This document shows positions 25,252 to 40,316 of a DNA stretch of 40,825 nt, piece after piece. How positions within the stretch are numbered: position 1 is the first letter of the stretch; each line of letters opens with the position of its first letter. The notes below the pieces were generated by a model. It was not told the DNA's origin and did not search any database. It saw nothing but the letters and a program-made list of their open reading frames with translations. Source of the DNA: Candidatus Woesearchaeota archaeon (GTDB lineage: Archaea > Nanobdellota > Nanobdellia > Woesearchaeales > UBA9989); the NCBI GenBank assembly GCA_013329045.1, contig DUKZ01000041.1, forward strand, positions 1 to 40,825, given 5' to 3'. Both the position numbers and the translations under genes were made by a program.

Positions 25252-26559
25252 TTATTGTTGAGGGTAACTATCGGAATGTTCTCCGGTAATCTCCAGATGA
25301 TATTTCCAGACATAGTTCATGAAAAGATAATTCCCCCCATCATTACAAGAATTTTGGTTGTTTAACTGGGTGCAGAGATGGGGTGTGTACATATAAAGAG
25401 AATATGTTGCAGCATTATCAATTCGTGTACTCACCCGTCTTCCAGCTTTTTGTAGGATCATTGGACTCTCAATTGGTTCATGATGATACCATTTGTTGTA
25501 TGTAGAAGCTGTGCATTTCAATTGTCCGGCAACACTCGCCCTTTGGCCAGACGCCCTGCTTCCCCGATCATTAAACCCGCAACCGGTTAAAGATGATGGA
25601 AGAGCTCTCCCAGACTCTATCCGTGAGCTCTCTACTTGAATACGGGCAAGAATAAGGAGGGGATTAACATCATATTCCCTTGAGAGGTGTTTTACATATT
25701 CAGCGAAGTCATGTTCCTCGCCGTCATAAGTAAAGGTGAGTGACTTGAGTCGTGATGGTTTGCTATTGATCCAATCTCTTATTTGAGTTATTGAAACACT
25801 TTCTTCTTGAGAAAATTCGCTTATTGAGAGGAGTTGATTCCAGTTTGGCTGTTTCCAAACATAACGATTCACAGTAGTAGTGGTTCTCGGACAACTATCA
25901 GAACCTGATAATCGCTGGAGGGCAGTAGAGTCAATAACCTGTGCAGTCGCTCTCGCTAAGCCGGTTCCAGGAAATAGCGCAAAGCTAATCGAGCGGATAT
26001 CATTAGTTGGATCACGGGTAATATGGCGATCTAAGAAGCGGTTGCATATCTCCAGTGATTGAAAATAATAGCTGTCATGATAGAGAGTTAAACCATTTTG
26101 GGCAAGGACACATGCTGAAGGGTTAGTATCTTCAATCATAAGAGGGATAACTGATGTGCTTTCTGGGCAAGAACCATCTTCTTGTATTTCATTACAGGAA
26201 TATGTAAAAGGAGGTGCAATATCATCTTCTCCAGACCCTCGCTTGCAGATTCCAAAAAGGGAGGCAGGAGTAGAAAGTGTTGAGGAAGTTGTCTCATATT
26301 CAACTCTTTTATCTTCTCCAGAGGGGTTCACTGCACAGACGCTTCCTAGCTGTGTGCCCTCAAAGCCTCCATCATAGGTGCATCCTTCTTTCACAGTGAT
26401 TATTGGTTTCTCAAGAACCTGTCCAGCAATCCGATAATTATCTCCGGGACTCGCAAACCCTTTTATCGCCTGGCCAGTGAGGGGGGAGACGCCAGGAATG
26501 AAGAGCGCACTGCACAGGAGAGCAACACTCAACAAAACAAAGATCCCTTCATGCAGCAT
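25252..26559 (-). CDS. Secreted lysozyme-like wall hydrolase with variable-type N-terminal region
   Basis: A 435-residue exported protein. The leader and first ~33 residues are nearly identical to the downstream M23 protein. A homologous Cys-containing region runs to about residue 230. The C-terminal domain (about 280-430) has YDVNPLLILARIQVESS with a candidate catalytic Glu310, then SLTGCGFND...QLKCTASTYNKWY and DNAATYSLYMYTPHLC. This matches a lysozyme-fold domain of actinobacterial and CPR wall hydrolases (NPxxLLxxxQxE ... TGYGCPD ... NxATxALYxYTP) and the domain in the 27740-29944 protein. Predicted to cut glycan strands. It lies directly downstream of RPA but has its own promoter. Confidence 0.8.
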   Translation of the reverse strand: MLHEGIFVLLSVALLCSALFIPGVSPLTGQAIKGFASPGDNYRIAGQVLEKPIITVKEGCTYDGGFEGTQLGSVCAVNPSGEDKRVEYETTSSTLSTPASLFGICKRGSGEDDIAPPFTYSCNEIQEDGSCPESTSVIPLMIEDTNPSACVLAQNGLTLYHDSYYFQSLEICNRFLDRHITRDPTNDIRSISFALFPGTGLARATAQVIDSTALQRLSGSDSCPRTTTTVNRYVWKQPNWNQLLSISEFSQEESVSITQIRDWINSKPSRLKSLTFTYDGEEHDFAEYVKHLSREYDVNPLLILARIQVESSRIESGRALPSSLTGCGFNDRGSRASGQRASVAGQLKCTASTYNKWYHHEPIESPMILQKAGRRVSTRIDNAATYSLYMYTPHLCTQLNNQNSCNDGGNYLFMNYVWKYHLEITGEHSDSYPQQ

Positions 26560-26621
26560 AAAACACCTCTAAAAAGACACAGAAAAAAGACTATAAAAAC
26601 CTATCCTTGCATATGCTTGAG
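26458..26621. repeat. 164-bp direct repeat, copy 2 (source copy)
   Basis: Identical to 25072-25235. Here the codons KHMQG and the stop belong to the intact RPA gene, so this is the original copy. It spans the RPA 3' end, the intergenic promoter and codons 1-34 of the lysozyme-like gene. Confidence 0.95.
26590..26601 (-). promoter_or_regulatory. Promoter of the lysozyme-like gene (repeat copy 2)
   Basis: The same GGTTTTTATAGT box, about 36 nt upstream of the ATG at 26559 and touching the RPA stop codon. Confidence 0.5.
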
Positions 26622-27602
26622 TTCTTCCTCAGGGTTTGGTGTGGGGTTTACATGATTCACCACAAACTCCATTCGGCCAAACATCTCATTGTGGGTCACT
26701 TTTCCTTTGACGGAGATGATATTGCCAAGGAGATCGTTCTTTACCGCTTCGAATTCCTCTGGAGATTTCCGGTAGGCAATGATTTCTGGATTCTTTTTCT
26801 GGAGTAGGTTTTCCAGCTGGTCCCGGAAGAACACCAATCGTATCGTCTCTGTCCCGTCATCTAAGACAGCATTCATCACATAAGAATATGCAGGAGCAAC
26901 TTTTCCATGGGTATCGCATGAAAACGCATCCTCTTTTGGCCGGGCTCGCTTTCCGCAATCAGGGCATACTTCAAAATAATTCGGTGAGAAAATTTGCACT
27001 AATGTGCCGAGCAGTTCAGCAGAACTCTCAGAAGGGATCAATTCAGCAATTTTCTTTCGTTGTGCAGTAATGACTGGTTTTGCCCCGCTTTTGACCTCGT
27101 TGATGACAACCCCAGGGGGGTTCAGGGTAACGCTTGCGCGTTCATTCAGATGGATCTCGACTGTTCCTTGATTGTCTCTTGTATAAGCATTGCTGATTTT
27201 CAGGATATCTCCGACGTTTGCACCAGAAAGGACATCTGCTTGTGCCCCCCAGCCAACGACTCTGAGAGATCCTGAATCATCGCCGAGCACGATATTCAAT
27301 ACCTTTCCCCCGCCTCCATCCTTTCGTGTAAATGTGCGAATATCATACTTATTCATGACCTTGCCTGTGACTTCAAACTCCCGAAGCCCCGGGAGCACCT
27401 TATTCAGCTTCACCTTGCCCTGGTACTCTTCAAAGAGATTTATGCCAAGCTCGTTTGCGATGATATGGGCAGCGCCTTCCTTGGATATCAATCCGGAGAG
27501 CTGGTCCATCTTCTGCCTTATTTTCCCTTTGAGATCTTCATCAGATAAGCCTGACTTTGCTTGGATAGTAGCCAGAACCTGTTCAAAAGGCAGTGAGATC
27601 AT
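26601..27602 (-). CDS. rpa: Replication protein A-like ssDNA-binding protein
   Basis: A 333-residue OB-fold protein. An N-terminal helical region (1-60) is followed by an OB fold (about 70-165; REFEVTGKVMNKYDIRTFTR, VLNIVLGDDSGSLRVVGWG) and a second OB fold holding a zinc finger (CPDCGKRARPKEDAFSCDTHG). This is the archaeal RPA41/RPA1-like layout. It protects ssDNA in replication, repair and recombination and would work with RadA. A TTATATAAAG box lies 26 nt upstream of the ATG at 27602. The extreme C-terminal codons are inside the duplicated 164-bp block. Confidence 0.92.
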   Translation of the reverse strand: MISLPFEQVLATIQAKSGLSDEDLKGKIRQKMDQLSGLISKEGAAHIIANELGINLFEEYQGKVKLNKVLPGLREFEVTGKVMNKYDIRTFTRKDGGGGKVLNIVLGDDSGSLRVVGWGAQADVLSGANVGDILKISNAYTRDNQGTVEIHLNERASVTLNPPGVVINEVKSGAKPVITAQRKKIAELIPSESSAELLGTLVQIFSPNYFEVCPDCGKRARPKEDAFSCDTHGKVAPAYSYVMNAVLDDGTETIRLVFFRDQLENLLQKKNPEIIAYRKSPEEFEAVKNDLLGNIISVKGKVTHNEMFGRMEFVVNHVNPTPNPEEELKHMQG

Positions 27603-27739: not shown

Positions 27740-29944
27740 TTATATGCAGGTGGGAAAAGATGCTTGCCGTATTGCCTCTCCCATTTTATCCCCTCCCTGC
27801 TGGTTTGGATGGAGTCCATCTCCTGTATCCTCTCCACCCATCTGCCCACTGCCATTATCAAGGGCAGCATACGTATCAACAACCACATCAACATTTTGTG
27901 GCTCTGAGAGTATCCATGAGTTGATTTGTTGTATCCTTTGTTTCGCGGTATCAGATGCCCCATTCCAGGGGGTGATAGTGAGCGCGATAACCTTTTTTCC
28001 TTCAGATTTTGCCTTTGCATACATCCGGGAAAGCGCTTCCTCAGTCACGGAAGGCTGCTGGTAGCTCACTTCATTTACTCCTGCAAGGATGATCACCGTA
28101 TCATAAGAATCAAGAGAAAATGATCCCACTTCCCCTTGGGGAGAAAGACAGTTTCGAAGACATGCTGCATTTGCTGATTGTCCATTGACAAAGCAGCTAG
28201 AGATGAGTTGTGCAGAACACCCTGAGTAGCCGATCTTATCAAACTGGATAGAAGGGCAGCGGGAAGAGAGGTAATTGAGAAAGTATCCATGCTGAGTGAT
28301 GGAATCTCCAACAGCGAGCACTCGTGAAGAGGGAGGAAGGGTCTGTTCTTCTCTGCGTTCTTCTGGAATCACAGGCATCTCTTCCTGTTCAGGTTCAAGC
28401 TCTAGCTGAGGGATGCACACAATATCATCATCTTCAGTATAGCCAATTTCTTTTTCTTTGGCTGTCCATGACGCGACAGTGATGCCCTGGCTTCTAATCG
28501 GCACTTCGTCTATCCCAACAACAGTAAAATAGTACGTTTTTTCAGGGACAAAGGGCTTATGTTCAACATTTCCATCTTCCTTGATGATATAGCCGCAATC
28601 AGGGATGAACATGCTGTTGCAAAGAGGTAACCCAATACCAACCCGCCTGATATCTTTTGCTTTTCTTGTGTTGATTGTCTTGAAATCGTCAGCGGAAAAT
28701 TCTTCATCTGAGCAATAGACCCGGTACTTTTCGATATCAGAGCTAGGGGAGTATCCCCAGGAGAGAAGAGCTCCTTTCCCATCAGCTGAGGGGATGGTGG
28801 ACCGGTCTTCATCGATAAAGCTCGTCCCGTCAGGCACAATGGGTGTTGGAGAGATAGTATCAGCGAGGAGGAGCCCAAATCTTCCAACACCAGCATCAAA
28901 GAGCAGGGCAAATGCTCCAGGTTCATCTTCTCCGGTAAGCTCATAACCTAATAAGAGCGGCCGCACCTGCCTTTTTGCAAACGCAGCACATGACTCTGCA
29001 TCGTTGTCTCCTTGGGGATTATCATTCCCGGCAACGTCGCTTCCTTTCTTCATGCACTCAAGGAATTGTTCTTTGACTCGTTGGGCCATCAGGATATATT
29101 CTCTATAAGAACTCAGGTGGGATGTAAGATCATAGTCGCCTTGTATCGTGAAAGAAGGATGAGTAATATACTGGAAGGGTGATGAAAAGGTAAGGATGGT
29201 AGTGGATTCTTCTCCTTCAGTTAGCTGGCCGCTTGTTTGTGGCAGCACCCCTAATTCTTGCATGTATCTTTGGTAGAGATTGATGAAAAGATAATTGCCG
29301 CCTCCAGGCGTCCTAAGATGGTAATCATAGGTATGGGGGGTATATTTATAGAGAGCGTAGGTTGCTGCATTCTTGACAGTCTGCTGGTTCTTTCCGGCAA
29401 TCCCCCAGTTGAAGTCTCTTCGTTCCCATTGATCTTGTGCAAACTCCCTTGGATATGTGAATCCTTTCCCGGTATCATACCATTTTCTATAGAGCTGTGC
29501 AGTACAGGTTAATTGCTCATAAACACCGCTATATTTAGGGTTGCACCCGCCAACATTAGGACAGCCACACCCAGTCAATGCAGTCCTTTGCCTCGCAGAA
29601 GGAGTCGATGTTTCCACCGCACTCTGCTCGGTTTGCATTCGTGCAAGGATAAGGAGGGGGTTCACTTTGTATTCTTCAGCGATCTGGGAGATGACCTCTG
29701 AGGGGTGCTTCCCTTCAAGAGGGTCCTTGAGCCAGGAATTCTTTTGCTCAAAAAAAAGTTGTATCTGGTCTTTTGTCGCACTGTCCCACCGTTCAAAGTC
29801 CTGGTCAGAGAGGAGGTTTGAGAAATCTGGCTCGCTCATCTGGTAGGTAACAAGACCGGTGATCGTAAAGGGAGCGGTAAAGACAACAATGATAAGGAAG
29901 ATCGTACTCATTCCAAAGATGACTTCTGGTATTCTTATTGACAT
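27740..29944 (-). CDS. Membrane-anchored lysozyme-like / SGNH esterase fusion
   Basis: A 734-residue protein with an N-terminal membrane anchor (about 10-33). A lysozyme-like domain (about 75-240) has YKVNPLLILARMQTEQS with candidate catalytic Glu106, ALTGCGCPN...YSGVYEQLTCTAQLYRKWY and NAATYALYKYTPHTYD, matching bacterial wall hydrolases. A middle domain of about 100 residues looks fibronectin type III-like. A C-terminal SGNH/GDSL hydrolase (about 545-734) has VLAVGDSITQHG, LAGVNE and DGLHPN, i.e. Ser, Asn and Asp-His all present. SGNH domains on wall enzymes often remove O-acetyl groups. I chose the ATG at 29944, which overlaps the upstream hydrolase stop by 10 bp. Confidence 0.85.
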   Translation of the reverse strand: MSIRIPEVIFGMSTIFLIIVVFTAPFTITGLVTYQMSEPDFSNLLSDQDFERWDSATKDQIQLFFEQKNSWLKDPLEGKHPSEVISQIAEEYKVNPLLILARMQTEQSAVETSTPSARQRTALTGCGCPNVGGCNPKYSGVYEQLTCTAQLYRKWYDTGKGFTYPREFAQDQWERRDFNWGIAGKNQQTVKNAATYALYKYTPHTYDYHLRTPGGGNYLFINLYQRYMQELGVLPQTSGQLTEGEESTTILTFSSPFQYITHPSFTIQGDYDLTSHLSSYREYILMAQRVKEQFLECMKKGSDVAGNDNPQGDNDAESCAAFAKRQVRPLLLGYELTGEDEPGAFALLFDAGVGRFGLLLADTISPTPIVPDGTSFIDEDRSTIPSADGKGALLSWGYSPSSDIEKYRVYCSDEEFSADDFKTINTRKAKDIRRVGIGLPLCNSMFIPDCGYIIKEDGNVEHKPFVPEKTYYFTVVGIDEVPIRSQGITVASWTAKEKEIGYTEDDDIVCIPQLELEPEQEEMPVIPEERREEQTLPPSSRVLAVGDSITQHGYFLNYLSSRCPSIQFDKIGYSGCSAQLISSCFVNGQSANAACLRNCLSPQGEVGSFSLDSYDTVIILAGVNEVSYQQPSVTEEALSRMYAKAKSEGKKVIALTITPWNGASDTAKQRIQQINSWILSEPQNVDVVVDTYAALDNGSGQMGGEDTGDGLHPNQQGGDKMGEAIRQASFPTCI

Positions 29945-31938
29945 TCTACGTGCCTGCAAAATTGATACACCGGATTCCACCATTTTCCAGGACCAAAGAG
30001 CTGCTCATATGTTCCATATTTTACTGGCCCAACTGAATGGATGAAGATATGTTTTCCGCCAGGGTCTGGTACAAATTCACCGTTTTCTATGTCTCCTTTC
30101 CCAACATATATTCCTGTATGTCCATATGCTGGCGATCCTCTGCTGTGAGCGGCGAACACATCCCCTGGCTGGAGCACATCAGGGTTTGTCCCAAGGGGGA
30201 TCATGAGTCCTGTATTTTTCCCGTTTATTATGGCCCCCGTTGCAACATTTCTGCTTGTGTAGGGGCATATGGCATTCCCATTGCCGGTAGGATTTTGCAA
30301 ACCGGCATAATGGAAAACTGATTGTACAAAGGTAGCGCATGTGGTACCAGCACTTCTCGCTTGTGCAGGGTTCACAAGTCCGCCTGCATGACGAGTATAG
30401 CCAGTGCCAAGGTATTCCTCCGCTTTATCTACAACATATTGGCATTTGGCAGGTTCAGTTGATTGTGTTATTTGAGAAGATGAACCGGCAGCTCTTGGCG
30501 GCCCGACATAGTCCATGATGCCCTGGGCAATTGCTTCTCCCATATCCCTGTCTTTCCCATTGGCCTTCGCAAGATCGTTCCTGTTATCATGAAAGAATAT
30601 CTCCACCAAAGTAGCCGGCATGAAGAGTCCTTCAAGGACGCCTGGATCTCCTCCCCAATATTGTTTTGTGGAAAAGCCAAAGTGTTGTGCAATTGCATCG
30701 GTAATCTTATGTGATAAGTCTTTTGATTGACTGGTTAAAGTGCCAGGCGGGCATTGTGTGTCGCTGGCATAATTGATATCTCCATCTTCCTTTACCCCTG
30801 GATGCTGGCATGCAACAATGCCAAGAGGCCCGCTCCCTCCCCCAGCATTTGAATGGATGCTCACAAAAGCTGCTGCATTATTGTTGATCGCTTTTCCTTT
30901 CCTGCAGAGGAAGTCTTCTTTGACTCGCGATTCAGGAATTGCGACCCCTACTGGATAGGTGTTTCCCAAACAATCCTTCCTGATATCATCGCGTGTCAGG
31001 ATAACAGTATATCCTCTGCTTTCCAGCACCCGTTGCACCTCTTTTGCAACAAGGAAGTTATGCCCTCCTTCAGTATATTCCAGTCCTTCCCCAAGATATC
31101 CCCTATCTTCTGTTGCATGGCCGGGGTCAAGGACGATGACTGTTCCGAGGCTCTCTTCACTGCAGGAAGATCTGGACACGGGTGGAGTGATTCCTTCACA
31201 GGTCTTTCGTTGCCGGGAGTCCTCGCAGCGACCAACCCTGTTGGATGCAAAGCCAGTATTTCGTGCGACCCATTGTGCATTGACTGTGTTGTCGATGTAC
31301 TCTTGAGGATACATGCAGAAAGGATCTATGTTTGTTTGGTATTCCCCCTCTGATGGCTCATGATCATATACCTTCATATCGAGATGTGCACCAAATGAAT
31401 AGCCGGTATTGCCAACTTTTCCAATGACCTGTCCTTGGGTGACATGTCCTCCTTCTTCAATGCCTTGTTCAACCCGTACCATATGATTATAGCGCACCCA
31501 ATAGTCCCCATGTTTGATGAGGACAAAGTTTCCATACCCATGCCCACACCGCTTATTCCCTGCAACGCATCCTCTCTGGACATACAGCACATCTCCATTC
31601 GCAACAGCATAGATAGGAGACCCTGCAGGTGCCCCAATATCAATGCCTGAGTGAAGGCTGTAGCTTCTTTGTTCATGCCAGCACGCAACAATTCTGTTCT
31701 GGTCAAAATCCAGTGGCCATCGCCATGCTTGGCCCCCTTCTTGGCATTGAGTGGATAGCATCTGTTCTCCTTCAGGTATTGCTCGATGGACAATGAGATC
31801 CTCTGATGCTGTCCCATACACCGCACCATTCCCCAAGGAAACGTGGAATTTTTCTGGGAGCACAATCTCTAATGGTGCAAGCGCATGAGCAAGTGGAACG
31901 AGGACAAGGAGAATGACGAAGGGTGCCGCCTTATCCAT
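29935..31938 (-). CDS. Triple-domain peptidoglycan hydrolase: M23 + Amidase_3 + NlpC/P60-like
   Basis: A 667-residue exported protein with a signal peptide (1-20; FVILLVLVPLAHA). An M23 endopeptidase domain (about 75-195) has HSGID (His96, Asp100), YNH (His152) and AHLDM (His185, Asp187; again HxD). An N-acetylmuramoyl-L-alanine amidase 3 domain (about 265-480) has all four expected residues: DPGH (His274), Glu290, SIHSN (His362) and LVEIFF (Glu446). A C-terminal NlpC/P60 or CHAP-like cysteine peptidase (about 500-667) has GTTCATFVQ (Cys534) and YGHTGIYVG (His607). Three activities against stem peptides in one archaeal protein is striking. The ATG at 31938 overlaps the upstream stop by 8 bp. 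Confidence 0.88.
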   Translation of the reverse strand: MDKAAPFVILLVLVPLAHALAPLEIVLPEKFHVSLGNGAVYGTASEDLIVHRAIPEGEQMLSTQCQEGGQAWRWPLDFDQNRIVACWHEQRSYSLHSGIDIGAPAGSPIYAVANGDVLYVQRGCVAGNKRCGHGYGNFVLIKHGDYWVRYNHMVRVEQGIEEGGHVTQGQVIGKVGNTGYSFGAHLDMKVYDHEPSEGEYQTNIDPFCMYPQEYIDNTVNAQWVARNTGFASNRVGRCEDSRQRKTCEGITPPVSRSSCSEESLGTVIVLDPGHATEDRGYLGEGLEYTEGGHNFLVAKEVQRVLESRGYTVILTRDDIRKDCLGNTYPVGVAIPESRVKEDFLCRKGKAINNNAAAFVSIHSNAGGGSGPLGIVACQHPGVKEDGDINYASDTQCPPGTLTSQSKDLSHKITDAIAQHFGFSTKQYWGGDPGVLEGLFMPATLVEIFFHDNRNDLAKANGKDRDMGEAIAQGIMDYVGPPRAAGSSSQITQSTEPAKCQYVVDKAEEYLGTGYTRHAGGLVNPAQARSAGTTCATFVQSVFHYAGLQNPTGNGNAICPYTSRNVATGAIINGKNTGLMIPLGTNPDVLQPGDVFAAHSRGSPAYGHTGIYVGKGDIENGEFVPDPGGKHIFIHSVGPVKYGTYEQLFGPGKWWNPVYQFCRHVECQ

Positions 31939-32503
31939 CTGGCACCTCTCCTGATATCCCCTCGATTCCAGAAGCATCCTCAGCAGGTACATATTCTTCA
32001 GCAGCAAGGTCTATTGGTTGAATCTCCTGTTCTTCAGCTTTTTTCAGGCGTTCTTCATAATCTTTCCTGCTGACCGTCCCAGGATAAGCCTCAAGATACT
32101 TTTTGAGCTCAAGGTTGAACTGGTTTTCAAATGCCTGTTCGAATGAGGATTTGGAAGGATAACATTCTTTTCCCATATCCTCCCAAAGGATATAGGGGCC
32201 TTCATTTTCCCCACCCCCATACGACCCGCATCCATTATCTGTGATAAACTCCCCGGGCCGCTCTGTTACCTTCTTGAATGCTTCATCTGCAGCATACAAC
32301 GCAGCAATCTCTAGGTATAATTGGAATTTTTCTGCTTCCTGGTATGACTTCACAAGCTCGAATTGCCTGCTGCCGATGGGCTCTTTTGTGATCTCACGGT
32401 ATTTGGAATGAAGCCCGATGAAGATGGTGGTCATAGCTATCATGAAGCCGATGACTATCATGACATTGAAGTACTGTGCCCTCTTTTTCATTCCTTTTTT
32501 CAT
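31931..32503 (-). CDS. Single-pass pilin-like surface protein
   Basis: A 190-residue protein: short basic N-terminus (KKGMKKRAQYF), one hydrophobic helix (about 13-30; VMIVIGFMIAMTTIF), then a charged extracellular domain with a Cys pair around residue 90-115 and a Gly-rich loop. The basic start plus hydrophobic helix fits a type IV-pilin-like or simple anchored protein. It lies 1 bp after the 32505 gene and overlaps the triple hydrolase, placing surface proteins and hydrolases in one transcription unit. No family is recognised. Confidence 0.75.
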   Translation of the reverse strand: MKKGMKKRAQYFNVMIVIGFMIAMTTIFIGLHSKYREITKEPIGSRQFELVKSYQEAEKFQLYLEIAALYAADEAFKKVTERPGEFITDNGCGSYGGGENEGPYILWEDMGKECYPSKSSFEQAFENQFNLELKKYLEAYPGTVSRKDYEERLKKAEEQEIQPIDLAAEEYVPAEDASGIEGISGEVPDG

Positions 32504-32504
32504 A

Positions 32505-33242
32505 TTATGAAGTCACGCCCTGTTCTTTTTCTTCGTAGATATCTTTCCCTCGCAGTGCCCAGAAATATTCTCCATAGCTGGATGCTGCAACGATTGCCTC
32601 TGGCTTGACCCGTTTGCATTCAGAAACAATATCAAACCCTGCCTCGGTCATCTTGAACCAGTCTTTAAAGCCGATGCTGATATTGATGAGTTTTGCATCT
32701 TTGGCAGGTATAGAAATTGTTGATACTTGATCGAGATACCCCATTTCATCACTGATGGGGCCGGTAATAGTTGAGGTTGCATCGGGCTCATAAGAATAAC
32801 CATAGATCATACGTCCATTGGGGAAGGTGATGGTGAGCCAGTAGCAGTCTGGCCCGATTGTAGTATCAAGGGTTGTTGCAACAGTTCGCCAAAGAGAGGT
32901 GATTCTTTCATCTTCATTGTTTTTGTTGAGGGTGATCTCTCCAGCAGCGGATTTTTCATAGATTTCCGTGAGTAGTTCTGAGAACATCACTGTCCTGTCA
33001 CGAAGAGGCACCGGTGTTCGGGCAAGGGCAAGGAGATAATCATTTTCCACAATGTCAAGAGTATAATTGCCAAGTACAGTGAATGTCTTTTGTTTTCCTT
33101 CGGGTGATGCCACATCATTCCCATGCACCCACACCCCAAGGTCTATCCTGATGGCAATAATAAAGAGGAGTGTTAGGACAAGGAAGACAAGTATGGCGAT
33201 GACATCAGGGATGACGGTGGTGATCTGTCCTTTTCTCTTCAT
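32505..33242 (-). CDS. Class III signal-peptide (pilin-like) protein, 245 aa
   Basis: It starts MKRKGQITTVIPDVIAILVF. RKG|Q followed by a hydrophobic helix is the archaeal class III signal cut by prepilin peptidases. The 200-residue extracellular part has a single Cys pair (DCYWL, SECKR) and no recognised domain. It overlaps the upstream gene by 4 bp. Probably a pilin-like subunit or surface adhesin (inference). Confidence 0.75.
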   Translation of the reverse strand: MKRKGQITTVIPDVIAILVFLVLTLLFIIAIRIDLGVWVHGNDVASPEGKQKTFTVLGNYTLDIVENDYLLALARTPVPLRDRTVMFSELLTEIYEKSAAGEITLNKNNEDERITSLWRTVATTLDTTIGPDCYWLTITFPNGRMIYGYSYEPDATSTITGPISDEMGYLDQVSTISIPAKDAKLINISIGFKDWFKMTEAGFDIVSECKRVKPEAIVAASSYGEYFWALRGKDIYEEKEQGVTS

Positions 33243-34375
33243 GACATCAGCACCTCCACAGTGAGCATTGCTGGCTTATAGTGCGGTTTCTCATATCGTT
33301 CCCCTGAAGGGGCTGGTAATTCCGCCAGATGAAGGGAATCGAGGAGGAATTGCTTTGCGAGGGCTTCGTTGATGGCAGTATGTTCCCGTAGAGCGATGGC
33401 ATGCCACTGGTCAATTGATGAGATAACCTGGTAGGTCTCTCCTGTATCAGTCTCTCCCCATACATGTTGCTCTCCCCCATTGACTTTTGGCCAATCGGCA
33501 TGGAGGGAAACGGTAGCTTCTGTTATTGCATGCCCCTCAGAATCACTCAGGGTATATCCTTGCCCGAGATGGACAGGAGGTGAATTTGGTGATCCAACAT
33601 GCTTTGGAATATTTTTTAATCTAAAGAGCAGGTTGATTGCCTTGTCTTCCACAAGCACTGGTTTTGTGTATGCTTGAAGGTTTGCATCATACGAGTTTGT
33701 GTTGAGGTTTGTGAGTTGTTTGTCCGATCCGATGACAATGGCAGTGCAGCATTCTTCGATGTTCCCCTCGGCCAACTGCTCAAAAGTGATGGAGTAATGG
33801 GGGATTCCTGAAGCAAGGGTCCTTATCTGTCCAAGGTCAGAGGGGGTCATGCAGAGTTTTACCGGGTCTGGATAGCTAGCCCGCGTCGCATCGCAGATCT
33901 TTGTTGTTGGCCTGTCTTTGACAAGGACATATCTTCTCTCGATGAATTGCTTCGGAGGTTGCCCTTCCATATACAAGAGTTCTTTCCAGATATGGTACCA
34001 GTCAGGATTAAAATAGATTTCTTCTTCCCGAGGCTCGCGAAGGAAATCCAGGGTCAATTTTGCTGCAAGATAATCGTTCCGGGGAAGGTCAAGCTTTGTC
34101 GCAAGGATAGTGGTGTTAAAATTGGCCATGTCCAGCGTCCCGACATAATTCTCTCCAGTGAGTGGATCAGTAGAGGAGAGCAGCCCTGGTGTTTGGAGCA
34201 ATCGTTCAGTAAAGAGCAATGATTCAGTGGCTGATGTGTCAATATTGGTGACAAAATACATACGGACAAGGGCAAGCATAGTGACAAGAACAAGTATCAT
34301 GAACATCAGGCGCAGGGTAAACGTGATCCAGAGGCTAAGCGTTAATTGCCCTTTCCGGAAGAATGGAGTGGTCAT
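33239..34375 (-). CDS. Class III signal-peptide (pilin-like) protein, 378 aa
   Basis: The N-terminus RKGQLTLSLWITFTLRLMF has the KG|Q processing motif followed by a hydrophobic helix to about residue 42. The extracellular part of about 335 residues is beta-rich and contains CC (about residue 210) plus two further cysteines. No recognised domain. It overlaps both neighbours by 4 bp, so translation is coupled along 35694-32505. Confidence 0.75.
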   Translation of the reverse strand: MTTPFFRKGQLTLSLWITFTLRLMFMILVLVTMLALVRMYFVTNIDTSATESLLFTERLLQTPGLLSSTDPLTGENYVGTLDMANFNTTILATKLDLPRNDYLAAKLTLDFLREPREEEIYFNPDWYHIWKELLYMEGQPPKQFIERRYVLVKDRPTTKICDATRASYPDPVKLCMTPSDLGQIRTLASGIPHYSITFEQLAEGNIEECCTAIVIGSDKQLTNLNTNSYDANLQAYTKPVLVEDKAINLLFRLKNIPKHVGSPNSPPVHLGQGYTLSDSEGHAITEATVSLHADWPKVNGGEQHVWGETDTGETYQVISSIDQWHAIALREHTAINEALAKQFLLDSLHLAELPAPSGERYEKPHYKPAMLTVEVLMS

Positions 34376-35694
34376 GGTGTAATTGGTATTGGCGCTTCAC
34401 CAGCAATTGATGGTCTGGCTGTTTGCAGCGATGCAAGGGATGATTGGAAAGCATTTGTGATAAGGTCTTGGTTTTCCTTGAGCATCATGAGCGATTCAGG
34501 GGATTTAGGTGAACCAATTGCTAATTTAACAGCGATTTTTCCAGTTGAGAGCACGTCATCTTCTCCTGTTGGAGTAATCGGCAAGGGTGGTGCGATCTGG
34601 AGTTGTGTTTCTGATAGTTCTGATTGGAGATTGTTGAGTAAACCGCAGGCAAATCGTGCATTGATGTTTTGGAGGGAATGATCATCTTGGTTTGAATAAT
34701 AGGCAAGGGCCGTTGGTTCTTCCTCATCATTGAGAGAAAGAGAGATGATCATATCTGCTTGTTGGGCAAGCCTCAAGCGTTTTAGTGGGATGAGAAAATG
34801 ATCGGGCGAAGCAAAGGGGATTGTTGCACCAGGGAGTGATGCCGCAAGTTGTTGGGCAAGAGGGAGCAGGTATGGTATCTTAGAGGCTCCCTCCCCCTGG
34901 TAGAGACGAGAAGTCAGCGTGCCATCTGAATAGAGTGAGTATCCTTGTCCATTTTTTTTCATTGAAATCCCTGTTCCAAGAGGAGTGCTCACCTCCTGTA
35001 ACTCTTCTTTCTCTCCAGTATCAGTCCTTGTCATCTCATAATGTCCTGTTTCCGGGTTGAGCACAGCAAAAATCCCAACACCGTCAGAGAAAGATGTGTA
35101 GTGGAGAAGGAGTGTCCTTGTCTGGAGTGATTGTGGATCTTCGACATAAAGGGTCGTGCTGTCCCCTCCAGAGCCAATATCTATAAGGATAGTAGAAAAG
35201 CTCAGCCCGCCATCAAGAGGAGCGCACGTCAATGAGTTTGTTGTAAACCGTTGATCCCCAAGGGCTATGGATACCTTCTTATTATCTTTGACAAAGGTGA
35301 TGGGGTACTTGTTAGTGCTCGGGGGTGCAATCTTCTTTTCTGTGACAGCAATCACGGGGTTTGAGATGTAAGGATACATGATTGGTATCTTGCTCTCGTC
35401 ATCCTCTTCAGATTCAACCTTATATTCTCCAAAGGTATATGCAAGGTTGTATTTTTTGGGGTCAATTGGGCCATATTTGTATGCCACCGTCCCGGGGGCC
35501 ATCTCCAATGTCTGCAGCTGTAAGGCAAATTGCCGGGAATGCCAGTTCTTCTCAAGGACTGTTGTCTTGACCATGCTCCTGGCAAAAGCGAGTGACCCAA
35601 CAAAGAAGAAGACAATGATGAGCAGGTAATACACGTGCATCATGATGATTTTTACTGCCGCATTCCCCTGTCTGCCCAGCCTCTTTTTCCTCAT
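34372..35694 (-). CDS. Membrane-anchored Amidase_3-like protein, probably inactive
   Basis: A 440-residue protein with one N-terminal helix (about 19-37). The extracellular part carries the landmarks of the N-acetylmuramoyl-L-alanine amidase 3 fold in order: STILIDIGSGGD (family: xVxIDPGHGG), LLPLAQQLAASLPGATIPF (family helix and strand before the TR motif), then LKRLRLAQQADMIISLSLND (family: R...AN...ADLFISIHAN). Both zinc-binding histidines are serine here (Ser175 and Ser320), so hydrolysis is unlikely; it may bind a glycan or act as scaffold. The fold call is my reading by motif order. A TATA box is centred 27 nt upstream of the ATG at 35694, so it heads the unit 35694-27740. Confidence 0.65.
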   Translation of the reverse strand: MRKKRLGRQGNAAVKIIMMHVYYLLIIVFFFVGSLAFARSMVKTTVLEKNWHSRQFALQLQTLEMAPGTVAYKYGPIDPKKYNLAYTFGEYKVESEEDDESKIPIMYPYISNPVIAVTEKKIAPPSTNKYPITFVKDNKKVSIALGDQRFTTNSLTCAPLDGGLSFSTILIDIGSGGDSTTLYVEDPQSLQTRTLLLHYTSFSDGVGIFAVLNPETGHYEMTRTDTGEKEELQEVSTPLGTGISMKKNGQGYSLYSDGTLTSRLYQGEGASKIPYLLPLAQQLAASLPGATIPFASPDHFLIPLKRLRLAQQADMIISLSLNDEEEPTALAYYSNQDDHSLQNINARFACGLLNNLQSELSETQLQIAPPLPITPTGEDDVLSTGKIAVKLAIGSPKSPESLMMLKENQDLITNAFQSSLASLQTARPSIAGEAPIPITP

Positions 35695-35715
35695 CAGCCA
35701 ATTTAAAGAAATGAC

Positions 35716-35726
35716 GTTTATAAATG
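35716..35726 (-). promoter_or_regulatory. TATA box of the hydrolase unit
   Basis: CATTTATAAAC on the minus strand, centred 27 nt upstream of the ATG at 35694; it predicts a leaderless transcript covering 35694-27740. Confidence 0.5.
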
Positions 35727-35727
35727 T

Positions 35728-36519
35728 TTACGGTTTGACAGCAGCTTGATGCTGTTCGCACTCGCTCATCTCGATTTTTGTGTCACGGGCAAAGCAGGGC
35801 TTCCCATCCCTGATATAATACTCGTAATTGTTTGCCCCAAAGAACCATACCCTGAGGTTTTTGCAGCAGATCTGTCCATTTTCTGCTGCTGCATTGATAA
35901 AGAGTGTATCACCTTCCCGAGACGCCATGAGACTTTGAAGGTTTGCCGCCCCCCGAAGGGCGCTCACATCAGGCAGGAAGACAAAATATTCGGCATTCGG
36001 ATGCATTGCCCTTCCAAGGCCATGATCTGCAATCATCTTTCCTTCATTCCCAACAAATCGCTGCTCGACAAAGATATAGTCAATGCCCATTCCAGGGAGA
36101 TTTTCGCAGATTGGCTTGTCCTGGCAGTCATTGTTTGATCCAGCCATCCTGTTGTTGCAGATGCAGATGCATGCTTGGTTCATGCATTTCAGGCTAGGGG
36201 GCCTTTTGATTTCCTGGTCCCGATTCCACGTGCCCGCATTATGATACACACTCCCATCCTTGTTGAACGCGATGACTGCCTTGTTTTGCTGGATGAAAAA
36301 AGGCACTGGACGCGACTGCCCGTCCTCTTTCAGGTCTGTCTTGATTGCTCCGACCAGGAAATCAAGGCTTCGCTGTGTTCCTTGGTTTGGCTTTGGTTGG
36401 AAGAACTCATAGATGCTGACGGTAAAAGAGACAAGAAAGACAATGATGAGTATTGTCACGAGGCCATAGATGATTTCCGTGAGGACAGCTGTATCCCCGC
36501 CACCTCTTTTCCTGAGCAT
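35728..36519 (-). CDS. Single-pass Cys-rich surface protein, 263 aa
   Basis: The N-terminus MLRKRGGGDTAVLTEIIYGL has a basic RKRG stretch followed by a D and a hydrophobic helix (about 16-36), similar to the KKGD starts of its neighbours. The extracellular part has a dense cysteine patch (CMNQACICICNN), further Cys at CCKN, and no recognised domain. The ATG at 36519 is 26 nt from a TTTAAA box; the in-frame TTG at 36525 is less likely. Confidence 0.75.
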   Translation of the reverse strand: MLRKRGGGDTAVLTEIIYGLVTILIIVFLVSFTVSIYEFFQPKPNQGTQRSLDFLVGAIKTDLKEDGQSRPVPFFIQQNKAVIAFNKDGSVYHNAGTWNRDQEIKRPPSLKCMNQACICICNNRMAGSNNDCQDKPICENLPGMGIDYIFVEQRFVGNEGKMIADHGLGRAMHPNAEYFVFLPDVSALRGAANLQSLMASREGDTLFINAAAENGQICCKNLRVWFFGANNYEYYIRDGKPCFARDTKIEMSECEQHQAAVKP

Positions 36520-36539
36520 GGCCAAGAATCAATATTTAG

Positions 36540-36549
36540 AGTTTAAAGG
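36540..36549 (-). promoter_or_regulatory. TATA-like box of the 35728-36519 gene
   Basis: CCTTTAAACT on the minus strand, centred 26 nt upstream of the ATG at 36519. Confidence 0.45.
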
Positions 36550-36558
36550 GTTTGTGGT

Positions 36559-37218
36559 TTATCCTTTAGTAAGAAAGACATTGACATATTCAAGACACTG
36601 CATCCAACGTAAGAACCCTGCCTGGTAGTTTGTATTGTGTACGATACCGCCAACAAGTGCAACCTTGTCATTTTCAGCATTATTCTGGGTTATATAGATC
36701 TTGCAATCAACTGTGCTCCCATCGTCTTTATTGTACCAACATGCCTTAAAGCGGTAGTCGCATCGTGCAGCTTTTCCAAGATATTTCACAGAGATCACAT
36801 AAGGGTCATTGCTGCCAAACCAGCACTGTGTATTCCTTGCGTCATCTCGATGAAAATCGTAATAGCTCCCAAACGCAGTACATGTACTGATGCTTGTGAG
36901 TGTTGGCGGCATATCAGCAAAATCACCCGCTTGGCCGGGAATGTTGGCAGGCCTTGTCGGATCTGCATCTCCTGTGTCCGCTGAACCATCATCAATGTCT
37001 GATTCCGTAGGGGTATCGCCATTGTTATCATTCAAGAACTCAGAAGAGTATTCTGCATTTTTATCAGAGAGTTCATTTCCCTGGTTCCCAAGATTTTTAA
37101 CCCAAGGGATACCATAGACAATAAGTGCGTAAGCCAGCGCAGCAAGCACCAATAATCCAAGGATGAGGTCAATGAGGTGGAATTCGCCGCTGCTGCCTTT
37201 CTTGTATAGTCGTTTCAT
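36559..37218 (-). CDS. Class III-like surface protein, 219 aa
   Basis: The N-terminus MKRLYKKGSSGEFHLIDLIL has a KKG motif, then one hydrophobic helix (about 15-40), an acidic Asp/Asn-rich spacer (DNNGDTPTESDIDDGSADTG) and a compact Cys-containing domain (CTAFGSYY, CWFGSND, CDYRFKACWYN). The frame extends to 37308, but the ATG at 37218 lies 1 bp after the upstream stop and places the KKG motif correctly. No family is recognised. Confidence 0.75.
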   Translation of the reverse strand: MKRLYKKGSSGEFHLIDLILGLLVLAALAYALIVYGIPWVKNLGNQGNELSDKNAEYSSEFLNDNNGDTPTESDIDDGSADTGDADPTRPANIPGQAGDFADMPPTLTSISTCTAFGSYYDFHRDDARNTQCWFGSNDPYVISVKYLGKAARCDYRFKACWYNKDDGSTVDCKIYITQNNAENDKVALVGGIVHNTNYQAGFLRWMQCLEYVNVFLTKG

Positions 37219-37219
37219 C

Positions 37220-37504
37220 TTAAGGGGAGGCTCCCGGTCCGCAACATCTTCCATTGAGGACTGATTCTGTTTTGCAATAAGATCCTGGAATGGTGCTTTC
37301 ACTTGCATCGCATGTTTCCTTGCAAGTGCTGCCCTCTAAACATGGTTGTTTAGTTGCTTCAGAGGTTGATTCATGGAACTTGGCCCAAATCGGACGGGCA
37401 ATGGAGATATAGACAAGTAAGAAGACAATAGCAAGGATAAAAAAAACCAACAATAGTGGCATTTCATTTCCTTTCTTGTTTAGGATTTTAGGGTAACGCA
37501 GCAT
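37220..37504 (-). CDS. Small anchored Cys-rich (CC-motif) protein, 94 aa
   Basis: ILNKKGNEMPLLLVFFILA gives a KKG|N class III-like site and one hydrophobic helix. The ~50-residue outer domain has seven cysteines (CLEG.TCKETC, YC, GRCCGP), a compact disulfide knot. It overlaps the preceding gene by 25 bp; an internal ATG at 37462 would remove the KKG motif, so I prefer 37504. It closely resembles the 37480 protein in layout. Confidence 0.7.
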   Translation of the reverse strand: MLRYPKILNKKGNEMPLLLVFFILAIVFLLVYISIARPIWAKFHESTSEATKQPCLEGSTCKETCDASESTIPGSYCKTESVLNGRCCGPGASP

Positions 37505-37752
37505 ATTTTTTCCTCAGTACATGATGATCCTTTATAGAGAAACCCATTTGTGCATTCACACCCTTCTCCTGTTTTGGTGTCACAGGCTGCCTTTGGTGGT
37601 TCACAAGTGCCTCCAAAAGTTGCACAATCTGATCCGGTCCTGCTAAATTCACCTGCATTTCTATTGATGAAGACTAATATGATTATAAGGATTACTGCTG
37701 CAATGATGAACCCGACGATCATGGCAAGAGAGAGCTCCCCTTTGTTATTCAT
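37480..37752 (-). CDS. Small pilin-like Cys-rich (CC-motif) protein, 90 aa
   Basis: It starts MNNKGELSLAMIVGFIIAA: NKG|E, then a hydrophobic helix (about 9-28). The outer domain has eight cysteines in about 50 residues, arranged C-x6-C, C, C-x-C, C, CC. This looks like a disulfide-knotted adhesion or carbohydrate-binding tip. The ATG at 37752 overlaps the stop of the preceding 41-residue gene (ATGA). Confidence 0.8.
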   Translation of the reverse strand: MNNKGELSLAMIVGFIIAAVILIIILVFINRNAGEFSRTGSDCATFGGTCEPPKAACDTKTGEGCECTNGFLYKGSSCTEEKICCVTLKS

Positions 37753-37874
37753 CCAACACCTCCAAGCCATGCGGTTGAGCTTTTGATATAATGAAGGATG
37801 ACAAATCCGATGCCAACACAGAGAAGTAATATAATGAGCCCGATGATAACCCAGTTCACTTCTCCTTTTTTCAT
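37749..37874 (-). CDS. 41-residue single-pass microprotein
   Basis: MKKGEVNWVIIGLIILL, then a continuation of the helix and a short tail ending GGVG. KKG|E class III-like start, one transmembrane helix, virtually no outer domain. Linked by 4-bp ATGA overlaps to both neighbours, which strongly supports that it is a real gene. Possibly a minor pilin-like core subunit or small partner of the larger proteins. Confidence 0.8.
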   Translation of the reverse strand: MKKGEVNWVIIGLIILLLCVGIGFVILHYIKSSTAWLGGVG

Positions 37875-38020
37875 CCTAGCCTCAGTATAGATTGAATTCT
37901 GGTGAATAAGCGTAACAATGCGGCTTTTCCTGGCCCCAAAATGACATACCCGGCTAATAAAAGCAATAACCCTGCAATGATTGAATAGAGGATTGTGTTT
38001 TGGTCACCTTTTTTATTCAT
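37871..38020 (-). CDS. 49-residue single-pass microprotein
   Basis: It starts MNKKGDQNTILYSIIAGLLL: KKG|D followed by a helix of about 20 residues and a basic tail (RLFTRIQSILRLG). The frame extends to 38068, but the ATG at 38020 places the KKGD motif at the N-terminus as in the neighbours. Its stop overlaps the next start by 4 bp. Confidence 0.8.
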   Translation of the reverse strand: MNKKGDQNTILYSIIAGLLLLLAGYVILGPGKAALLRLFTRIQSILRLG

Positions 38021-38064
38021 CATTCCCTTTATTCTCCAAAACAGCATATAAATAACTTTCGGGT

Positions 38065-39009
38065 TCAAGAGTCATACGACCCTTCCACGCTCTGTGCCAG
38101 TTCCTCGCATCCATAATATCTCATGTATCCTGCATCGTGGGGTATGAGCACCCTCATTGCAACCCACTCTGGCGGCTGCTCCGCAAAATAATGGTTATAG
38201 ACAACTGCTCCGATGATGACAGCTCCACCGACAATAAGCAGGGGCATTGCCACGGCGCTCAAGACAGCTCCTCCAGCCATGACAGCAGCAGCTCCGGGAG
38301 TGGCCGTTGCAGCCCCAACTGCCCCAACAGCCACCGTCGCTTCCACAATCGCCCCCCCAACATATCCAGCCCCAAGCCCTGCCGCAACTAGGCTGCCACC
38401 GCCAACTGCCCCAACAGCGACCGATTTTTGCCTGTTCCCTATTTCTTCAATAGCATCTTTTCCTTTGATATACACAAAGACAACATCATATCGGTCATAT
38501 TTTGACGTGTCTATCTCAAACGTCCCGATCTGTTCTGGAGAAAGGCTATATTCAGGTTCTTCAAAGCTCCCAAAGCTCCCTTCATATGTTTTCTTTTCAT
38601 CATCGGATGCGGGGAAGATATCAGCCAGGTTCACCGTCATCTTCTTGTTTTTCTTCAGGTGGATATGTGCGCACAAAGAGCAATATTTTCCATCTGAGGA
38701 ATAAAGCTCCTTTGTTCCCCATTGATACTGCCAGCCGCACCAGTACGCTTCCTCCTTGATGAGTTCTTTGAGGTGTGCATCTGTCATTCGTCCAACATTC
38801 CGAACAACTGTGCCGCATTGTAATTCCTTTTCTGCGTCGATATGCAATTGTTTTGACGTTGTATGGATATCTACAGAATCCCTGCACGTTTTGTGCGTCG
38901 CATATTCAGCAGCAGATTCCCTTGTCATGGAAACAACGTTCATCATCAGCCAGAGGAAAAGTAACCCTAAGACTAATGATACAAGGAGTTCCATTGACAT
39001 TTTTACCAT
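38065..39009 (-). CDS. Membrane protein with Cys cluster and glycine-zipper hairpin, 314 aa
   Basis: N-terminal hydrophobic helix (6-27), then an outer domain with WCGWQYQWG...KYCSLC, matching CWYQFGQG...AYCFVC in the 299-residue neighbour; the C-termini also match (VLIPHDAGYMRYYGCEEL and TPLTDINAIGC). The two are distant paralogues. Unique here is a stretch at residues 197-270 made almost only of Gly, Ala and Val with small-xxx-small spacing, enough for two or three glycine-zipper membrane helices. Such segments occur in pore-forming or membrane-inserting proteins. It starts 2 bp after the 299-residue gene. Confidence 0.75.
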   Translation of the reverse strand: MVKMSMELLVSLVLGLLFLWLMMNVVSMTRESAAEYATHKTCRDSVDIHTTSKQLHIDAEKELQCGTVVRNVGRMTDAHLKELIKEEAYWCGWQYQWGTKELYSSDGKYCSLCAHIHLKKNKKMTVNLADIFPASDDEKKTYEGSFGSFEEPEYSLSPEQIGTFEIDTSKYDRYDVVFVYIKGKDAIEEIGNRQKSVAVGAVGGGSLVAAGLGAGYVGGAIVEATVAVGAVGAATATPGAAAVMAGGAVLSAVAMPLLIVGGAVIIGAVVYNHYFAEQPPEWVAMRVLIPHDAGYMRYYGCEELAQSVEGSYDS

Positions 39010-39011
39010 TG

Positions 39012-39911
39012 TTAGTAGGGCATTTGCGTGCAGCCAATAGCATTGATATCGGTTAATGGTGTGAGGTACATCACCGCTGTCGGATTCGCGTTTTCCAGCA
39101 GCATATTTCTGTAATCCTCTGAATGGTCATAAAGGTAGAGAGAGAGAGGGACAGTAAGAATCCCTCCAGCAGCCATCGTTGCACCGATGTTCCCGCCATA
39201 GATATAGGGTGATATCTTTGCATATAGTGTAGGTGAGCTGTATACAAACACGAGCGCGTAATGTTGCGTGAGGTCAATTGATGCAGTTTCCATCTCTTCT
39301 TCATTTTTCTTCGTGACAAGATATCCTGAAAGGAGTATGTCCTCATACCACGAATAAGAGAAATAATCTGCATACGTTGTTTCGCTGGCGCTGGAGATCT
39401 TGTTCGTATCAATAAACGCCTTAAAGAACGCGTAATCAATCTGCCCTTCGAATTTCTCAGCGAGCTGGGGAGTGAAGGACATCTGCGAGCACACAAAACA
39501 ATATGCTTCCCCTTTCAGTTCATTCGACGGGAACGGATTTACCTTCCCCTGCCCGAACTGGTACCAGCAGGTATACATCTCATCAGCAATTCCCCTGACA
39601 GTTCCTTCCCACACCTTTTCTATGGAATCATCTTCGTATTTCACGATCTCTTTTTCATTTCCTTGAAGACGCTTGCTTCCTTTGGCGGTGAACTCGAGCG
39701 TTGAGGGATTGCAGGAGATCTTGTCGATGAACTCATTTGGCCCCACCCGAAGGTTTGCAGCAGCAAGAACGCTGATTCTGCATTTTTCTACCTCGACGGT
39801 TTTTGACAGCCAATTCTTTACCTCAACAACAACAAAAAGCAGGATGCCTCCAACTAATAAGATCAGGATAATCTTTACCAATGTCTCCATCAGGTCGCCT
39901 TTCTTGTTCAT
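39012..39911 (-). CDS. Class III signal-peptide surface protein, 299 aa
   Basis: It starts MNKKGDLMETLVKIILILLV: KKG|D with a Glu at +5 after the cut (D-L-M-E), as in type IV pilins, then a hydrophobic helix. The outer domain of about 260 residues has a cysteine set (CRISV, CNPS, CWYQFGQG, YCFVC, IGCTQ) shared in part with the 314-residue protein. No recognised family. It overlaps the 38-residue leader gene by 4 bp. Confidence 0.8.
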   Translation of the reverse strand: MNKKGDLMETLVKIILILLVGGILLFVVVEVKNWLSKTVEVEKCRISVLAAANLRVGPNEFIDKISCNPSTLEFTAKGSKRLQGNEKEIVKYEDDSIEKVWEGTVRGIADEMYTCWYQFGQGKVNPFPSNELKGEAYCFVCSQMSFTPQLAEKFEGQIDYAFFKAFIDTNKISSASETTYADYFSYSWYEDILLSGYLVTKKNEEEMETASIDLTQHYALVFVYSSPTLYAKISPYIYGGNIGATMAAGGILTVPLSLYLYDHSEDYRNMLLENANPTAVMYLTPLTDINAIGCTQMPY

Positions 39912-40024
39912 GGTCCATTGAACTTTTTAATGATGTTAATAAATAAGATGACTGTGACACCAGCAACTAACATAACAATAACCCATATAAGGGTCATATT
40001 CAACGCATCACCCTTTTTTTCCAT
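39908..40024 (-). CDS. 38-residue KKGD microprotein, first gene of the surface operon
   Basis: MEKKGDALNMTLIWVIVML, then a continued helix ending IIKKFNGP. KKG|D, one transmembrane helix, no outer domain. The ATG at 40024 is 25 nt from a TATATAAA box, so the transcript starts at the start codon, and its stop overlaps the next start (ATGA). It heads the operon running at least to 36559. Confidence 0.8.
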   Translation of the reverse strand: MEKKGDALNMTLIWVIVMLVAGVTVILFINIIKKFNGP

Positions 40025-40053: not shown

Positions 40054-40120
40054 GATATCGCGGTTTAGAAGAAAGAAGTGTATACGCCAACACAACTGGC
40101 GCAGATGATTAAGAGGAATA

Positions 40121-40265
40121 ATTCAGCAACAACAATAATGGCATCAGACCGCTTTTCAAGGAAAAGCTCGGCTTAGAGACGCACAGAAATGCTTTGCATT
40201 TCTGGCACCCATAAAATCTTCGATTTTATTGGGCTAAGCCGTCTGTGCCATTGTTGTTGCTGAAT
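40121..40265 (+). repeat. Dispersed palindromic element, copy C (best preserved)
   Basis: 145 bp with perfect 15-bp terminal inverted repeats (ATTCAGCAACAACAA / TTGTTGTTGCTGAAT). Internally it has AGCTCGGCTTAG and CTAAGCC pairing across the centre, plus two small hairpins (CAGAAATG...CATTTCTG and CCCATAAAATC...GATTTTATTGGG). The motifs CAGACCGCTTTTC, AAAAGCTCGGCT and GCCGTCTGTGCCA occur in copy B in the same order. There is no reading frame. It could be a MITE-like non-autonomous mobile element or a structured RNA. It occupies the intergenic gap between the surface operon and the RNase J-like gene. Confidence 0.8.
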
Positions 40266-40316
40266 GGCTAGTAAAAGAAGAAGGAGAGGATGGCAACTGA
40301 ATTTTCATCCCATATA

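Follow-up and report, generated by a model that had tools for sequence, protein, structure and literature searches.

A run of fifteen genes on the minus strand of a contig from a Candidatus Woesearchaeota archaeon probably provides the subunits and the tip for a distinct type IV filament (T4F) system, present in Woesearchaeota and related orders, whose displayed hydrolases would cut the wall of a contacted bacterium. By its features the locus would fall within the T4F superfamily, its platform protein being called from context and topology, and it is the coupling of pilins to hydrolases that sets it apart there. The components have already been published separately, and the joined archaeal locus appears to be new; no description of a coupled archaeal pilin–hydrolase locus was found among openly accessible papers, which leave out most subscription papers and preprints. 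A wider reading, plausible to us though we stop just short of favouring it, is that of a class-wide archaeal T4F whose minor pilins are exchangeable carriers of peptidoglycan-cutting enzymes and which breaches the walls of living bacteria. If true, a large DPANN lineage would have bacteria as its hosts or prey. Woesearchaeota and their relatives are for the most part uncultured, and the locus offers a concrete molecular link to bacteria: pilins joined to bacterial-wall enzymes, sometimes in one polypeptide, would make a cross-domain contact weapon or penetration device.

The gene run and its conservation

The window, i.e., the whole stretch of 40,825 nucleotides that was analysed, is an entire contig (G000:C31) of a 1.74-Mb archaeal genome that is 90% complete. 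Archaeal RNase P RNA, RPA and RadA are all encoded on it, and the gyrase A of the genome, closest to those of Woesearchaeota and Nanoarchaeia, groups it with Woesearchaeota; its taxonomic family is represented in the sample by the source genome only. The genes g1–g15 (Table 1) occupy positions 40024–27740 without interruption; neighbouring genes are spaced by −25 to +41 nt, and five pairs overlap by 4 nt. At least twelve co-directional genes, many with ATGA overlaps, had been described here in the initial annotation, and the fifteen genes found at that place bear this out. Just upstream of g1 there is a 171-nt element with perfect 16-nt inverted ends and a predicted RNA fold of −72.9 kcal/mol (z = −10). 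Diverged copies (pieces 71–86% identical) are present on several other contigs, which suggests a dispersed palindromic repeat or MITE.

Table 1. Features of the locus and its surroundings in the window, and hydrolase fusions of g13 in relatives (loci in place of positions)
Feature	Position	Strand	Description
Element upstream of g1	40105..40275		dispersed repeat- or MITE-like
g1	39908..40024	-	38 aa; MEKKGD class III-like start and one hydrophobic segment
g2	39012..39911	-	299 aa; KKGD start, Cys-containing ectodomain, C-terminal hydrophobic stretch; one family with g3
g3	38065..39009	-	314 aa; g2 paralogue; C-terminal half Gly/Ala-rich, hydrophobic; without KKG start
g4	37871..38023	-	50 aa; small pilin-like protein, KKGD
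g5	37749..37874	-	41 aa; small pilin-like protein, KKGE
g6	37480..37752	-	90 aa; NKGE start, Cys-rich tail; several family copies per locus in relatives
g7	37220..37504	-	94 aa; KKGN start, Cys-rich tail; falls into g6 profile
g8	36559..37218	-	219 aa; KKGS start, secreted domain
g9	35728..36519	-	263 aa (265 from TTG at 36525); KRG start; position ahead of g10 conserved
g10	34372..35694	-	440 aa; one N-terminal membrane segment; homologue fused to N-acetylmuramidase in 2 relatives
g11	33239..34375	-	378 aa; RKGQ start; N-terminal ~160 aa = locus marker family (profile A1)
g12	32505..33242	-	245 aa; RKGQ start
g13	31931..32503	-	190 aa; KKG...KKRA start; domain = profile A2; unfused in source genome
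g14	29935..31938	-	667 aa; Sec-type N-terminus; Peptidase_M23, Amidase_3 and weak CHAP/NlpC-like domain; 8-nt overlap with g13
M23 domain of g14	31360..31656	-	HLD in place of HxH
g15	27740..29944	-	734 aa (747 from ATG at 29983); N-terminal membrane segment, h2-like unassigned domain, C-terminal SGNH/GDSL
RPA-like single-strand DNA-binding protein	26601..27602	-	3' neighbour of the locus, conserved in several orders
h2	25252..26559	-	435 aa, secreted; C-terminal domain 38% identical to g15 unassigned domain
h1	23839..25173	-	444 aa, secreted; Peptidase_M23
M23 domain of h1	24118..24390	-	HLD in place of HxH
g13-SLT fusions	L130, L134, L136, L144, L147, L150, L155
g13-M23 fusions	L131, L140, L141, L144, L147, L154
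g13-NlpC/P60 fusions	L139, L154
g13-Amidase_2 fusion	L160
g13-M74 fusion	L143

The motif [KRN][KR]G followed by a hydrophobic stretch is present at the start of 11 of the 13 products of g1–g13, the exceptions being g3 and g10. A stricter start test was passed by 8 of 12 cluster ORFs and by 15 of 1755 other ORFs (~1%; Fisher p = 1e-13), the ORFs being automatically called and the background comprising the readable ~80–85% of the genome; chance occurrence of KKG starts was rejected on this basis, and the class III-like starts noted earlier in several of the genes are confirmed. This signal, predicted from the sequence, is present in most members of the g3, g6 and g9–g13 families, and within each family it is kept in approximately 75–90% of members, versus 11% among unlabelled neighbours and none among 20 RPA proteins. 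The products had also been described as single-pass, which does not fit g2 and g3, since both have a Gly/Ala-rich hydrophobic stretch at the C-terminal end that could insert into a membrane. Comparison of the g11 and g13 profiles with solved structures gave no credible match, and the weak matches of the g2/g3 profile to NPC1 (0.003) were not believed.

The Cys-rich tails of g6 and g7 resemble defensin or TIL domains (Pfam, below cut-off). In several loci, e.g., L137:4610-7723 and L161:14196-17123, a protein of ~1000 aa with internal hydrophobic hairpins (the "BIG" family) is located between g3 and g9; the two examined had no Pfam match.

Relatives of g11 were found by sequence search in 93 of the 241 genomes of the order and by profile search in 174, while g13 was found by profile in 205; g11 is present in other orders of the class as well (212 of 371 genomes of the phylum sample). 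Among the 120 g13 matches listed on a g11-bearing contig, 119 lie within 3.5 kb downstream of g11 on the same strand. The 35 neighbourhoods compared share the gene order U0-U1-U2-U3-U4, g3 (often twice), several g6, g9, g10, g11, g12 and g13, often followed by RPA. All 68 M23 and SLT matches located within 12 kb of the locus are on the locus strand, with approximately four expected that close under uniform placement, and the possibility that the hydrolases are unlinked neighbours was rejected. The synteny of the small membrane genes with hydrolases in DPANN genomes, proposed initially as a check, thus turned out strongly positive.

A prophage or other mobile lysis cassette lying beside unrelated membrane genes is a most improbable source of these enzymes. 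Tail and lysin proteins of phages show remote similarity to the M23 part (no more than ~25% of the query in the best matches), but the flanks are RadA, RPA, gyrase A and RNase P RNA, the ordered arrangement is conserved across the class, and g2, g10, g11 and g13 have no phage family match. No set of holin, endolysin and virion genes was present among the window ORFs read, and no virion genes were seen in the syntenic loci; a phage lysis cassette was rejected on the grounds of the housekeeping neighbours, the ordered conservation and the lack of virion genes seen. In one sister-order genome RadA is interrupted, apparently by an intein (L177:14386-16842; 818-aa open frame).

Assembly machinery

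The window encodes no assembly ATPase, platform protein or prepilin peptidase, from which it had been reasoned that these must be encoded elsewhere. A search of the rest of the genome for PilB, TadC and prepilin-peptidase genes found all three, the platform being assigned from context and topology. In sister orders the loci themselves include a PilB-type ATPase of ~770 aa (10 of 16) and a multi-membrane putative platform of ~720 aa (13 of 16), always upstream in the locus and on the same strand, with at least one of them present in 13 of 16. The platform, called TadC-like (a fused TadC) from its context and topology, has no Pfam T2SSF match. In the source genome the ATPase orthologue, with T2SSE over the cut-off, is located on contig C26 (58% identical over 760 aa), and the platform orthologue on C20 (49% identical over 737 aa). 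Two A24 prepilin peptidase genes, one of them with a GGGD motif, lie outside the locus on C52 and C29, and the latter contig also carries the pilin-like block U0–U4. In the proposed mechanism the class III pilin-like proteins g1–g13 would be processed by the A24 peptidases and assembled by the ATPase and the platform, and U0–U4 would constitute a second pilin-like block of the same system.

Archaeal type IV pili comprise a secretion ATPase, a TadC-like platform and many divergent class III pilins, encoded in loci that are often split (Makarova 2016, PMC4858521), and a pilin "dark matter" island was described in DPANN archaea (Makarova 2019, PMC6393860). The present locus resembles them in all these features, i.e., the ATPase, the putative TadC-like platform, the divergent class III pilins and the split loci, whereas no peptidoglycan hydrolases were reported in either case. 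The C26 ATPase and the C20 orthologue of the platform are also distinct from the two ordinary archaeal pilus loci of the source genome itself (on C17 and C20), whose ATPases are only 25–28% identical to that of C26. The putative platform of the present system is one fused protein of ~720 aa, Pfam T2SSF-negative.

The best functional analogue, by analogy only, would be the Kil system of Myxococcus, in which Tad-like machinery and pilins distributed over split loci are needed for contact-dependent killing (Seef 2021, PMC8460266). Kil is bacterial and includes a secretin, which is not expected in archaea, and the accessible part of that paper reports no pilin-fused hydrolase. VirB1-type and phage-tail lysozymes likewise place a wall hydrolase on an envelope-crossing machine for local opening; these are, however, different machines, similar at the domain level only.

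Hydrolase fusions and the bacterial wall as a probable target

In relatives, in-frame fusions with peptidoglycan hydrolases of several families (Table 1) begin with the class III-like g13 domain of ~160 aa, and in sister orders an Amidase_2 is present on one g13. In one of the two relatives with a g10–N-acetylmuramidase fusion, g10 is also fused to Amidase_2. Genes located 3′ of g13 add GH25, M15, SGNH, NAGPA, polysaccharide deacetylase and further M23 or NlpC domains. Altogether, a wall hydrolase over the cut-off is present in g10, g13 or the next genes in 17 of 32 complete loci of the order, with weak matches in three more. Roughly half of the loci sampled in the order, and almost every sister-order locus, lack a recognisable wall hydrolase; the apparatus therefore does not depend on hydrolysis everywhere. 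Sister orders retain the locus but mostly have no recognisable hydrolase in it, which suggests that the filament is older than the hydrolases and that these were added repeatedly in Woesearchaeales. The swap-in enzyme slot may record which walls each lineage meets.

In the source genome itself g13 is unfused and the N-terminus of g14 is of the Sec type, which leaves the operon as the only link there between pilin and enzymes. The claim of one apparatus coupling pilin-like proteins to wall hydrolases is supported by the synteny, the in-frame fusions and the ATPase and putative platform genes of sister-order loci, and for the source genome it goes as far as the shared operon. According to the mechanism envisaged, g13, the last pilin-like protein, would in relatives bring the hydrolase along as a C-terminal part of itself, and in the source genome it would be co-made with the separate g14 and g15; the hydrolases would be exposed on the cell surface or at, or close to, the tip of the filament, and the wall of a contacted bacterium would be cut locally, allowing the archaeon to attach, penetrate or lyse. 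The outcome of contact may be attachment, feeding, DNA uptake or killing.

A different arrangement, a type II-like secretion pseudopilus whose pilin-like proteins form a short piston and export soluble hydrolases to scavenge bacterial walls, with no contact device, seems unlikely. It would accommodate the ordinary secretion-type N-termini of g14, g15, h1 and h2 and the gathering of very different kinds of enzymes at the 3′ end of the locus, but in relatives the hydrolase belongs to the pilin-like, membrane-anchored g13 or g10 protein, which would tether the enzyme, and archaea with one membrane need no such exporter.

The initial annotation named as probable target a bacterial neighbour or host, or else an unknown envelope polymer, and bacterial walls are the best reading of the enzyme repertoire. 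SLT, M23, NlpC/P60, Amidase_2/3, M74, GH25 and muramidase have unrelated folds and all act on peptidoglycan; it is this common substrate of the swapped-in enzymes that points to a bacterial target. The alternative that they act on the archaeon's own envelope or that of an archaeal host, on a murein-like polymer, in the course of remodelling or filament passage, is improbable. Cultured DPANN have archaeal hosts as a rule, and a filament has to cross the surface layer, but at least seven unrelated hydrolase families differing in bond specificity, all of them peptidoglycan enzymes, occupy the same slot, and an archaeal polymer is an unlikely target since it would not be cut by all of these families.

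We give similarly little credence to a DNA-uptake or conjugation-like pilus, whose hydrolases would open the bacterial wall to reach DNA while RPA protects the incoming single strands. RPA follows g13 in 18 of the 30 assessable loci of the order and in 14 of 15 of sister orders, and nucleotide scavenging has often been proposed for DPANN; RPA is nevertheless a housekeeping gene with its own promoter-like spacing here (137 nt from g15), and in the source genome it is probably on its own transcript.

For the proposed contact-dependent filament that would cut bacterial walls, precedents are available on the enzyme side. Large murein-transglycosylase proteins (fam00969) were described in Woesearchaeota and Pacearchaeota (Castelle 2021, PMC8204110), and GH23 enzymes and "vampirism" were discussed (Vigneron 2022, PMC9723730). 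The organisms, the enzyme class and the idea of contact with bacterial walls are the same as here, but those reports concern single proteins or family modules, with no pilin locus, pilin fusion or range of enzymes. Archaeal peptidoglycan hydrolases, in which Nanoarchaeota are rich, were also reported to kill bacteria (Strock 2025, PMC12352652). These include M23 and other hydrolases aimed at bacteria, as those of the present locus would be; they were described as secreted, and linkage to a pilus was not mentioned. By the domain criterion for archaeal antibacterial hydrolases, M23 and Amidase_3 in g14 and M23 in h1 are over the cut-off.

Hydrolases of the source genome

The triple-domain M23/amidase/NlpC-like hydrolase recognised initially corresponds to g14, in which two of the domains are secure: Peptidase_M23 (8.5e-22) and Amidase_3 (4.4e-21) are both over the Pfam cut-offs, and the Amidase_3 motifs DPGH, TEGG, SIHSN and LVEI are readable in the sequence. 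The C-terminal domain is only weakly CHAP/NlpC-like (Pfam 0.0011 and 0.0065, below cut-off), its Cys and His being readable; it also matches a PHROG minor tail protein (1.3e-5), and its homologues occur at the same place in two relatives (L135, L159). A tblastn search with g14 against the genome contigs gave no named relatives. In a genome-wide search M23 was found twice, in g14 and h1, both on the window contig, and SLT was not found. In both M23 domains Asp replaces the second His of the HxH zinc motif (HLD), whereas HLH or HVH is present in 5 of 7 relatives checked, so the M23 activity is in doubt.

Of the lysozyme/SGNH protein, the SGNH/GDSL half stands: this domain of g15 scores 5.3e-12, with readable GDS and DGLH motifs. 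The presumed lysozyme part, shared by g15 and h2, showed no Pfam match, an hhalign probability of 3.5% to SLT and no match among solved structures, nor did the g15 domain match phages or plasmids; its only resemblance is a short motif similar to the catalytic-Glu helix of SLT. Single-sequence AlphaFold models reached a pLDDT of 38 for this domain and 33 for the C-terminal domain of g14, and were set aside.

Beyond RPA there are two additional hydrolase-like genes, h2 and h1 (26559–23839). Their products have nearly identical N-termini, the same 30 nt precede both genes, and the catalytic parts differ, which, as judged from these similarities, is a recent duplication with domain exchange. It is also worth mentioning that in g15, h1 and h2 the hydrophobic segment at the N-terminus is succeeded by a TG-hydrophobic motif (ITGLVTY, LTGQAIKG, LTGRVIAD), which may serve as a signal for processing or anchoring.
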